From NCBI GenBank assembly GCA_018061065.1, contig JAGOUV010000001.1, forward strand, positions 114,217-178,216: a DNA stretch of 64,000 bases. The letters run 5' to 3'. Under the pieces are notes generated by a model that was not told the origin of the DNA, did no database searches, and was given only the letters and a program-made list of their open reading frames with translations. Each line of letters begins with the position of its first letter. The stretch's first letter is position 1. This DNA comes from Candidatus Altimarinota bacterium (GTDB lineage Bacteria; Patescibacteriota; Gracilibacteria; UBA1369; UM-FILTER-53-11). Below, one piece after another: positions 8,739 to 27,792 of the stretch. The position numbers and the translations under genes are program-made.

Positions 8739-8750
8739 TATAATGATGTG
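8739..8750 (+). promoter_or_regulatory. Leaderless -10 box of the PP2C gene
   Basis: TATAAT (8739-8744) plus 6 bases leads exactly to ATG 8751. The in-frame GTG at 8748 would lie inside the discriminator region and is therefore unlikely to be the start. Confidence 0.65.
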
Positions 8751-10334
8751 ATGGGTCGCCTCTCAATTAAAACAAAATTAAGCATCGGAATCATCGTACT
8801 TTTGTTCGTACTTTTTACGGTGACGGCGGTGCTGCTCGTTTTTGAGAAACGCAATGAGTTAGCGCGCGATATTTATACGAATGCGCGTAGTTATAGTGAG
8901 CTTACTTCGACAAAGATTATTGATCTCTATAAAAACTTACTCGCAGAGAAAAGTTTTTTTGTTTTTAATCGTGAGATACGGGATGTATTTAAGAAAAACA
9001 GTGACATCACGGCGATCGATGTTTATTCCTACGGTGGCGAAATTTTGTATGATTCCGAACAAGAAAAAGAACGTGTGTATGAAGGCGAACCACGGTTTCT
9101 GGACGATGAGCAGTTAGCTGCACGTATTAAAGCACAGTTGCCGAGCTATCTATTGAGTTCTGGCCGTGTTGTTTATTTGAAAAAAACCAGTGATAGCGAG
9201 TATCTCTATGTTGATCGTGATGAGGGACGTGTAGAGCCGATTGCAGATACTGATCGCATCGTGGATATCGTTATGCCGCTCGCCGGAACCAATGCAGTTC
9301 GCTACGGCGTCTCGTATGAAAACTTGCAATCTCGTGTTATTCACATGACGCAGCGAATCGTGCTTTTGCTTGTTTTTGGTGTGTTGGTAGGACTGGGATT
9401 TGCGGTGTATTTTAGCAGACGAATTACAAAGCCGATTGAAAAACTTACCGCAGGCGCATTGGTCTTGGGCAAAGGAGATTTTAGTGCTCGTGTAGAGGTA
9501 ATTTCACAAGATGAAGTGGGTGTTTTGTCTGAGACGTTTAATAAAATGGCGGGAGATCTGCAGATTTCTACCAAGGCGATGATTGAGCGTGAGAGATTGG
9601 GGAAGGAGCTCGAGTTGGCGATGAAAATTCAAAAGCAAATTTTACCTAAAAAACTTCCCGATATTCCTGATTTGGAGATTGCTACATTCTTATTGCCTGC
9701 CGCTGAAATTGGAGGTGATTGTTATGATTTTATCCAGGTTGAAAGCAAAGATAATACGGGTGCACATTTCTTCTATATCGGTGATGTGACGGGGCATGGT
9801 GTGCCCTCGGGTTTGGTCGTATCAATTGCAAATGCGCTCATTTATAGTTACGTAGATCGCGCTGATACGAAGGAGATTCTTACGAATACCAACCGCGTGC
9901 TCAAGATGAAGACGAGTCAAAATATGTTTATGACGCTCTTGATGTTGAAGTATGAGAATGAAAAATTATCATATGTGAGTGCGGGACATCCCGAGATGCT
10001 GCATTACTATGCCAAGGACGAGACGGTAATTACGGAAAAAGGTGGTGGAATTGCATTGGGAATGGTGCCTGATCTTGGAAAGTTAATTAATGAAGTAGAG
10101 ATTCCATTTAGCTCTGGCGACTGTGTGGTGCTCTATAGTGATGGTATTCCCGAAGCAGTCTCAGAAAAGGGTGAGATGTATGGTATTCCTCGCTTCAAGC
10201 GCGCGCTGCAAGATGTGGCGGAAATTGCGAATGTGGAAGCTATCAAAAATGCGTTAGTTGCTGACGTGAAGCTCTTCATGGGCAAGGCGGAACAGATGGA
10301 TGATATAACACTGGTGGTGATACGTAAGAAATAG
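8751..10334 (+). CDS. Membrane sensor phosphatase: extracytoplasmic domain, HAMP, SpoIIE/RsbU-type PP2C
   Basis: A 527-residue predicted sensor. TM1 spans about 7-29, an extracytoplasmic sensor region runs to about 200, and TM2 spans 203-223 and is followed by a HAMP domain (SRRITKPIEKLTAG). After a short coiled linker (ELELAMKIQKQILPKKLP) comes a SpoIIE-type PP2C domain with the metal-binding motifs GGDCYDF, GDVTGHG, SAGHPE and YSDGIPEA and a terminal DDITLVV. Such phosphatases usually dephosphorylate anti-anti-sigma factors in partner-switching pathways. No STAS or RsbW-like partner is encoded here, so the target is unknown. Transcription appears leaderless. Confidence 0.93.
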   Translation: MGRLSIKTKLSIGIIVLLFVLFTVTAVLLVFEKRNELARDIYTNARSYSELTSTKIIDLYKNLLAEKSFFVFNREIRDVFKKNSDITAIDVYSYGGEILYDSEQEKERVYEGEPRFLDDEQLAARIKAQLPSYLLSSGRVVYLKKTSDSEYLYVDRDEGRVEPIADTDRIVDIVMPLAGTNAVRYGVSYENLQSRVIHMTQRIVLLLVFGVLVGLGFAVYFSRRITKPIEKLTAGALVLGKGDFSARVEVISQDEVGVLSETFNKMAGDLQISTKAMIERERLGKELELAMKIQKQILPKKLPDIPDLEIATFLLPAAEIGGDCYDFIQVESKDNTGAHFFYIGDVTGHGVPSGLVVSIANALIYSYVDRADTKEILTNTNRVLKMKTSQNMFMTLLMLKYENEKLSYVSAGHPEMLHYYAKDETVITEKGGGIALGMVPDLGKLINEVEIPFSSGDCVVLYSDGIPEAVSEKGEMYGIPRFKRALQDVAEIANVEAIKNALVADVKLFMGKAEQMDDITLVVIRKK

Positions 10335-10374
10335 GGAAACTTAGAAGCGTAATTTAGTAGTGTCTTGGCGATGC

Positions 10375-10490
10375 TTTTATTTTTTGACTTTGCTCGACGG
10401 CGTGCATGCTGCAGGATCATGTATCCTGCAGCCTCACGAGGCCGTACATGTTAGGCCGAGCGAGTCGCACGCCTAGGTCAAAAAATAAAA
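10375..10490. repeat. 116-bp palindromic multi-hairpin intergenic element
   Basis: This fills the gap between two convergent genes. Perfect 14-bp outer arms, TTTTATTTTTTGAC (10375-10388) and its complement (10477-10490), enclose inner arms GGCGTGC (10399-10405) and GCACGCC (10467-10473). Inside them lie a 10-bp hairpin GCTGCAGGAT/ATCCTGCAGC (10408-10417/10423-10432), a small CCT/AGG hairpin at 10432-10441, and a GGCC/GGCC pairing (10440-10443/10454-10457). The fold resembles a multi-arm junction. It could be a bidirectional transcription end, a structured RNA or a small mobile palindrome. I saw no second copy in the window. Confidence 0.6.
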
Positions 10491-10502
10491 TATTGCTAAG
10501 AC

Positions 10503-11771
10503 TTACTCTTTCCGTTCATCAAGTTTCACAGAAACCTCGAACGTCTTCCCATCGCGCCAGACCTTGAGCTTAATTGTGTCTCCGGGCTGATGTTTTTGGA
10601 CCATCGACTGCAATGTATTGTTGCTCGTGATTTTCTCGCCGTCGAGCTCCAGAATAATGTCGTCAAGCTTTAGGCCTGCTTTTTCCGCAGGGCTTCCCGG
10701 CACTACGCCAAACTCTTTCTTCGTCCGATCTCCTACAACTAATGCACCATAATCAACATCTTTTATATTCAAATCTTTCGCATTTTCTTTGGTGATAACA
10801 GTATGATTTACACCCAACACCGGTCGCACGATATATCCAAACTTTGCCACGCTTTCTAGTGCCGGTTTAATTTGAGTCATCGGAATAGCAAATCCCACCC
10901 CATTCGCACTTGTATCCACGGCAGTATTAATTCCAATCACCTCACCGCCTTCATTGATAAGCGGTCCACCTGAATTGCCAAAATTGATCGCTGCATCGGT
11001 TTGGATTAAGCCTGTCAGCGTCTCTCTCTGCCCGCCGCCATTATCAGAAGCCTGAATATCACGGCCGATTGCACTTATAATTCCCGCTGTCACGCTATTG
11101 TTGTATTCGCCGCGGGCATTACCTATGGCTAAAACGCGCTGTCCCACTTTTAATAAGCCGGAATCACCCAGTTCTGCGGGGGTCATTCCACTTGGCTTAG
11201 GGCCAAATTCTTTTTTTTCGCCTGTTTTACGATTACTGGTGTCTTCATCTGTATTTTGTTCGTGTAACTGAATTACCGCCACATCATTTACCGGATCGCG
11301 ACTAATGATTTCAACGTCATATTTTTTGCCGTCTTTGGTCAACGCCGTGTAGTCTGCACCATCGACAGAAACGACATGTTTATTTGTCAGTGCTAATCCG
11401 GTCTCATCTACGATAAATCCTGTTCCACCTGCCACTTCTTGACGTTTTGTCTGTGGTTGGTCGGGCTTTTGCTCATTTGGCTGAACATTGGGAAGCATGA
11501 ACTGTCTAAAAAACGGATCATTCATAAAGGGATTGAGCGGCTGTTGCTGAAAAATCTGCAGATCTTTAGTCGCTACAATACTAATAACTGAAGGCACCAC
11601 TTTTTCGATCGCGTTAATACTGTCAGATGATTCTACGAAGTTTCGTTCTTCGATAACTTTTGTAGTTTCTACCCGCGTAAAAATCGCACCCCCAATGCCA
11701 CCACTTAAAAAAGAAATAGCGGCGATTGTTGCAATAAGTCTCACGGGCAACTGCATTTTTTCATTCGTCAT
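10503..11771 (-). CDS. HtrA/DegP-family serine protease with PDZ domain
   Basis: A 422-residue S1C protease. An N-terminal membrane anchor or signal occupies about residues 10-30. The trypsin-like domain carries the triad His132 (TNKHVV), Asp163 (DPVNDVAVIQL) and Ser267 (NFGNSGGPL), and one PDZ domain covers about 320-415. It should act outside the membrane in protein quality control. A TATACT box on this strand (11777-11772) ends directly at ATG 11771. If that box is used, Met1 is not transcribed and Met6 (codon at 11756-11754) would be the true start, still leaving an intact signal anchor. The gene is divergent from the formyl-THF cyclo-ligase with only 14 bp between start codons. Confidence 0.93.
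   Translation of the reverse strand: MTNEKMQLPVRLIATIAAISFLSGGIGGAIFTRVETTKVIEERNFVESSDSINAIEKVVPSVISIVATKDLQIFQQQPLNPFMNDPFFRQFMLPNVQPNEQKPDQPQTKRQEVAGGTGFIVDETGLALTNKHVVSVDGADYTALTKDGKKYDVEIISRDPVNDVAVIQLHEQNTDEDTSNRKTGEKKEFGPKPSGMTPAELGDSGLLKVGQRVLAIGNARGEYNNSVTAGIISAIGRDIQASDNGGGQRETLTGLIQTDAAINFGNSGGPLINEGGEVIGINTAVDTSANGVGFAIPMTQIKPALESVAKFGYIVRPVLGVNHTVITKENAKDLNIKDVDYGALVVGDRTKKEFGVVPGSPAEKAGLKLDDIILELDGEKITSNNTLQSMVQKHQPGDTIKLKVWRDGKTFEVSVKLDERKE

Positions 11772-25144: not shown

Positions 25145-27792
<2,648 letters not shown>

Follow-up and report, generated by a model that had tools for sequence, protein, structure and literature searches.

A palindromic element between convergent genes, with a conserved core hairpin and site-private arms, in uncultured Peregrinibacteria

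Several kinds of short bacterial repeat are known to which a palindrome between genes can be compared. ERIC and Correia sequences, NEMIS, the Rickettsia palindromic elements and MITEs are, like the family described here, 100–300 bp long, foldable, dispersed and without an inner gene, and their copies have terminal repeats in common. Integron attC sites, imperfect palindromes with core boxes GTTRRRY/RYYYAAC, are recognised in single-stranded form, folded and with a single polarity. REP, BIME and REPIN sequences, which occur with RAYT (TnpA-REP) transposases, are, like this family, dispersed intergenic palindromes; they are recognised as a hairpin on one strand and spread non-autonomously. A REP is defined as a palindrome of 20–40 nt with a GTAG or CGTC tag and a high copy number (PMC3733652). 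Inverted repeats attributed to template switching are described with matched arms, compensatory multi-base changes and spacer inversion, arm matching and inversion being the products of the switch, and the Peregrinibacteria family has the same traits; the known cases are RNA genes or unrelated coding sequences, whereas in this family a single conserved and dispersed element forms the spacer (PMC8604942; PMC8794818). No published description of such a family was found among open-licence papers, and in a report on five complete Peribacteria genomes the terms palindrom-, intergenic and noncoding were absent and the four passages on repeats concerned other matters (PMC4736985).

The element lies in a window of 64 kb, the whole stretch of DNA analysed, in a draft genome of 1.30 Mb (28 contigs, 98.5 % complete). 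As an RNA fold its stem runs from 10362 to 10502, a length of 141 nt, between two converging genes. The features of the locus are as follows.

8748–10334, plus strand: left neighbour, a HAMP and SpoIIE-type phosphatase
10362–10390, plus strand: 5′ arm of the outer stem, including the perfect TTTTATTTTTTGAC at 10375–10388; partner 10475–10502
10362–10373, plus strand: outer part of the 5′ arm, with three G-U pairs
10399–10405, plus strand: 5′ side of the inner 7-bp stem, GGCGTGC (RNA fold)
10408–10432, plus strand: hairpin A, with the loop CATGT on a 10-bp stem GCTGCAGGAT/ATCCTGCAGC
10433–10464, plus strand: hairpin B, the conserved core, with a 5-bp stem, a GA/GA internal loop and a 4-bp stem
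10467–10473, plus strand: 3′ side of the inner 7-bp stem, GCACGCC (RNA fold)
10475–10502, plus strand: 3′ arm of the outer stem, gap 0 to the htrA stop codon at 10503–10505
10503–11771, minus strand: right neighbour, convergent, an HtrA-type trypsin/PDZ protease

A preliminary description had reported a 116-bp palindrome with three internal hairpins and no coding content at this position. Its 14-nt perfect inverted repeat (10375–10388/10477–10490, 88 nt between) and second stem of 7 bp were recovered, as was the convergent setting, with the phosphatase on the plus strand and the protease on the minus strand. The extent was too small: in the RNA fold, pairing extends beyond the perfect repeat as far as 10362 on one side and 10502 on the other, with three G-U pairs among the outer 12, which gives the element a length of 141 nt. 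The minimum-energy fold has two hairpins on the inner stem rather than three. No gene fills the gap, but a mechanically called ORF of 95 aa (10133–10420, minus strand) enters it.

Folded as RNA, the plus strand of 10360–10505 reached −71.8 kcal/mol against −38.95 ± 3.36 for 200 shuffles (z −9.78); the minus strand reached −63.5 (z −7.66), and the DNA fold of the plus strand had a z of −7.62. Among 1825 segments of 140 nt taken every 35 nt over the 64 kb, that of the element was the most stable (−66.1; mean −29.0, sd 6.6), followed by those of the tRNA-Leu of 13649. Among the 13 inverted repeats of at least 14 nt within 300 nt that were listed for the window, the element alone has arms that are 100 % complementary. 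A second long-range inverted repeat at 25682–25844 (22 nt, 73 % complementary, 119 nt spacer) lies outside the element family, judged by its loop. Hairpin B has the loop GTACATGTTA at 10444–10453 and one A·C mismatch in its 5-bp stem, and scored 51.2 bits (E 1.4e-11) against R1, a covariance model of the core hairpin made from 19 sequences including the window copy itself.

The distribution of copies was determined by sequence, pattern and covariance searches. BLAST of the element in the host genome gave one match at E≤0.001 and four further matches at E≤1. In relatives a stretch of 25–60 nt recurs (E down to 2.5e-9), which lies within 10434–10493 and is chiefly GAGGCCGTACATGTTAGGCC. The pattern AGNNCGTACATGYTAGNNCGAG had 30 matches in 11 of the 89 genomes of the order, and 0 when read backwards as a control; the exact motif was found in 29 stretches across 84,980 species genomes, all 29 titled Ca. 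Peregrinibacteria or Peribacteria. R1 matched 25/89 genomes at E≤0.05 and 17/89 at E≤0.001, with 1–14 matches per genome (G002 14, G042 11, G044 and G049 9 each, G037 8, the host 1 and G003 8, of which three are another repeat); the weakest matches, for example those of G053, G080 and G083, may be chance. At class level, 17/288 genomes had an R1 match at E≤0.01, and each of the 17 belongs to that order, the 288 including an unstated number from outside it. R1 undercounts, as a DNA search with one g33 copy gave eight further copies, all of which were read. Rfam returned no match at gathering and, at E≤10, only XIST_A_REPEAT (E 6.8), far under the cut-off. An origin from a plasmid or virus was rejected, with no plasmid match and the exact motif in no viral contig.

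The element is the only clear host-genome copy of a family so far seen only in uncultured Peregrinibacteria. Of the options offered earlier, a structured RNA, a replication or packaging signal and a REP/MITE-like palindrome, the last has fared best, given the dispersed copies in relatives, the strongly covarying hairpin and the location of most copies near gene 3′ ends; no observation favours a replication or packaging signal. The dispersed, non-coding, multi-copy character of a MITE was found in the relatives, the host genome having one clear copy. The preliminary description would have been refuted by an absence of other copies and of conserved stems in orthologous gaps, and this outcome was not seen: other copies exist, and pairing is kept between orthologous sites of other genomes. 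For the gap of the window copy itself, no orthologous gap was found. In five genomes of the family, the 0.7–1.5 kb behind htrA had no PP2C match and no core loop, and by eye the family genomes had no trace of the element arms there.

The core hairpin is conserved in structure. In the alignment of 19 sequences, 95.3 % of cells were paired, against 28–40 % when the alignment was slid, and covariation was 0.507 against 0.127 when shuffled, with two-sided changes in 6/9 pairs, the three invariant pairs being partly fixed by the search pattern. For a continuous-stem type with the same loop, covariation was 0.819 against 0.197 and 10/11 pairs had two-sided changes. That set consists of the 21 of 24 candidates that were unique and had at least 9 of 11 pairs (a duplicate was dropped, as were two candidates that formed fewer than 9), so its percentage paired is flattered by the choice of candidates by pair count. 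The loop GTACATG[T/C]TA, itself part of the search patterns, is nearly constant, and the stems vary freely. At the position of hairpin A, many other copies have a hairpin tipped by CATG, sometimes by CACG or CAAG (by eye). By eye, the CATG tips of the two hairpins might form a kissing loop, but this idea was dropped, since the pairing fails in those copies where the tip opposite a CATG loop is CACG or CAAG.

The arms of the copies were tested by aligning each left flank with the reverse-complemented right flank, with a stricter stem scoring that replaced a laxer version which over-extended into genes. Of 89 copies collected, 86 were testable; these include three of another repeat (L193, L194 and L196), all above 12, and four copies are doubtful (L200, L217, L218 and L219). 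Unless stated otherwise, the arm, context and strand counts include these seven false or doubtful copies. The three belong to a separate dispersed palindromic repeat of G003, which matches the core model weakly; its copies share ends of the sequence GCTTTTGGCTGCCGYGGTTGCCT or similar, and GCCGAGCCG..CGACGAAGGCAATCCGGCAGCC lies inside. Own pairs had a median arm score of 20.5, compared with 7.5 in 258 mismatched pairs, and a score of at least 12 was reached by 74/86 own pairs against 5/258 mismatched pairs. Twelve of the 86 copies stayed below a score of 12, and G042 accounts for five of these.

Copies that resemble each other in the core but lie at different sites have unrelated arms of about 15–45 bp, as in L185, L186, L187 and L192 of G002 and in L167, L168, L170, L171 and L172 of G042. 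In G042 a nearly identical cassette of about 65 nt lies between unrelated arms at several sites, and G002 has several pairs of copies that lie at unrelated sites yet agree to 80–93 % over about 150 nt. The exception to private arms is a set of larger palindromic units in G002, of 283–294 nt (L090 1340–1622, reverse strand; L043 1783–2076; also L081, L086, L088 and L089), with common ends of the form GG[A/C]TCA[T/A][G/A]CG[A/T]TTTTT..TTTGA or of GGNTCATRCG type. The recent large units have arms common to several copies, and the shared ends indicate that whole-palindrome duplication also occurs. Four core matches of G002 lie at most 100 nt from a contig end, as recent identical repeats do.

The family can be compared with the systems named above. 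It differs from MITEs in arms that differ per copy, shared ends being limited to the large G002 units. Compared with REP/RAYT systems, it is much longer (about 100–200 nt) and multi-hairpin, is without a GTAG/CGTC tag and has a low copy number, with 1–14 R1 matches per genome; its arms are mostly private to each copy, and the Y1 transposase is missing from many carriers. With attC sites it has in common the imperfect palindrome and probably the folded single strand of one polarity. Assignment to attC was rejected, as the boxes are not conserved, GTTAGGC of the window copy being GTTAGCC in many other copies.

Comparison between species showed how the arms change. At two sites (L078/L079 and L073/L082), in comparisons of G049 (or G037) with G044, the spacer is inverted relative to its flanks. 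In seven pairs of orthologous stems, 287 stem pairs were aligned, of which 209 were unchanged, 28 had changed on both sides and 21 on one side with pairing kept, and 29 were broken; 14 of the broken pairs are in L073/L082, where the stem alignment enters coding sequence. For this test and the stop-codon test, six of the seven false or doubtful copies were excluded and L217 was below threshold. At the L078/L079 site and at L185, the stop codons of the converging genes occupy mirrored positions in the arms. Several g33 sites are common to different species, so some copies are old and vertical. The template-switch signature of arm homogenisation and spacer inversion was found in other copies, not in the window copy.

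We give about even credence to the reading that the window element is a lineage-specific REP/MITE-like repeat and that template switching in replication both makes the arms at each site and maintains their match. The spreading unit would be a cassette of roughly 60–150 nt, consisting of the core hairpin and usually a second, CATG-tipped hairpin, and would act as a folded single strand of fixed polarity, that of the window plus strand, either as ssDNA or as RNA. At most sites it is enclosed by a long stem with two arms private to the site. Judged by the products, template switching on the folded element may copy one flank in reverse beside the other, and the same process may keep the arms matched and occasionally flip the spacer. 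Near gene ends such hairpins would be tolerated or useful; the window copy would supply a hairpin directly after the htrA stop codon. A more specific version can be advanced tentatively, namely that of a mobile hairpin without terminal repeats of its own, which folds as a single strand, gains its private arms by fold-back synthesis from the new site and has its spacer flipped in place.

Candidate enzymes and empty sites were searched for with respect to mobility. The Y1 transposase domain PF01797 was found in 23/89 genomes, comprising 6/25 core-bearing genomes and 17/64 others, and mobilisation by RAYT/Y1 was rejected since the domain and the core were not associated in the 89 genomes. It was absent from the copy-bearing G000, G003, G014, G026, G044 and G049, drafts in which genes may be missed. 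Near the recent G002 copies, Pfam named no transposase among 10 ORFs, six of which had no match of any kind. One locus of G037 (L223, G037:C11:53326–53685) has a Y1 transposase reading frame interrupted by a single in-frame TGA and may be a decayed gene of the IS200/IS605 type.

No clean empty site was found at the four sites searched (L063, L074, L199 and L189). At the L063 site, which has a copy in G049, G078 and G044 have a hairpin lacking the core loop with the motif AGAAAAAGAAGGGGTGGGAATATGTATTTGAGC inside (L202, about 1380–1600, in G078; also L203 in G044), and in G037 the right flank alone matches, with no core loop, no arm and different DNA as the left flank. At the L074 site (L204/L206 against L074/L205), G044 and G037 carry the element, G037 with a different variant; G078 has about 570 nt with an ORF of 167 aa and G049 similar sequence to the contig end, and a search of these two for the L074 arm gave nothing beyond 8-nt matches. 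At the L199 site of G050, G006 (L235) has instead 5.1 kb with ORFs. Genes seem to have been lost or gained together with the element at the L074 and L199 sites. The flanks of the L189 site are on two contigs in G037 and G049, with other DNA behind the left flank. Inspection by eye, without an empty site, gave no clear direct repeat indicative of target-site duplication beside the L090 and L043 units.

The copies are not distributed evenly among gene contexts. By gap, the 89 copies are 30 convergent, 39 tandem, 5 divergent, 7 without a neighbour and 8 inside ORFs called by a simple caller, several of which look spurious. The background set (n=101), drawn from the window and L091–L119, contains some element gaps and some overlapping loci; it comprises 14 convergent, 57 tandem and 30 divergent gaps. 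Convergent gaps are enriched (30/74 copies against 14/101, p 8e-5) and divergent gaps depleted (5/74 against 30/101, p 1e-4), and of the copies with both neighbours, 69/74 are faced by one or more gene 3′ ends, against 71/101 background gaps. Arm ends track stop codons weakly: 71/89 sides that face a gene end lie at most 25 nt from a stop codon against 64.2 ± 2.3 when permuted (reached in 2/2000 permutations), and 41 lie at most 10 nt away against 40.4. A ParB-family gene (L103, 5798–6883) lies about 700 nt from one G002 copy.

A rather unlikely alternative, for which this context argues, is a cis-acting 3′-UTR RNA, the fold being selected at gene ends and the arms kept complementary by selection rather than by the replication machinery; its role might be protection of mRNA ends, termination without a U-tract or protein binding at the GUACAUGYUA loop. 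The facing gene 3′ ends, the convergent enrichment and divergent depletion, the nearly constant loop with variable stems, and the two-sided changes that keep pairing in the orthologous stems (28, beside 29 broken pairs) are all consistent with it. The spread of similar cassettes within genomes and the differing orientation in sister species at two sites are not, and the strand of the mismatches also counts against it. On the core strand, stem mismatches were G-U in 82 cases and A-C in 30 (79:30 without the three false copies), which was counted for the single-strand polarity of the main reading and leaves the structured RNA option of the preliminary description some probability; the p of 9e-7 is too small because copies are related, and counted by copy the bias was 35 against 15 with 24 ties (p 0.007). 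The ratio was 42:11 between convergent genes; with the core strand antisense to both neighbours it was 17:5, whereas with a sense core strand it was 7:6 and the bias absent, so that the bias cannot be put down to the neighbouring mRNA. It was not significant in the outermost 15 columns (29:19) and was absent in family f10 (5:6).

It is improbable that terminators or other palindromes already present instead receive the cassette in their loop, the arms being old host hairpins. Copies close behind stop codons and arms that differ by site would fit, and ISPpu9, an IS located in REP palindromes, was counted in favour (PMC8450116). No perfect stem of at least 15 bp with a spacer of 3–20 nt was found in the window or in 188 kb around the G042, g33 and G002 copies, which makes ready palindromes unlikely as targets, the 188 kb being sequence around copies and not a random sample. 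With spacers of 21–170 nt, 29 of 32 such stems in the 188 kb contain the core loop, and of the remaining three, two represent the degenerate L063-site copy of G044 and G078. Nor was a T-tract regularly present behind the arms in the copies read by eye.

That the copies are autonomous small RNA genes, transcribed from a promoter of their own, is quite improbable: the covarying multi-hairpin fold and the core-strand bias agree with it, the patchy, multi-copy distribution speaks against it, and the site-specific arms usually reach the neighbouring gene ends and so would leave hardly any space for a promoter common to the copies. The least credible reading is that of a simple bidirectional terminator, or of a palindrome that arose by chance in a compact genome. 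The convergent genes on both sides might suggest it, but as a full explanation it is already refuted by the copies in relatives, the core covariation and the conserved-loop family found with the exact pattern and not with its control, the T-rich arm lying 5′ and the A-rich arm 3′, wrong for a U-tract on either strand since the A-run forms the 3′ arm on both; a scan for terminator-like sites, allowing loops of 3–8 nt only and so blind to the outer stem, gave none here.

Where compensatory changes are seen, a selected RNA is usually regarded as proven. The family offers many parallel bacterial cases of long stems that arise, keep their match and flip round one conserved core, and selection and template switching can therefore be distinguished. 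It also points to a factor that recognises the GTACATGYTA loop, in bacteria without genetics.
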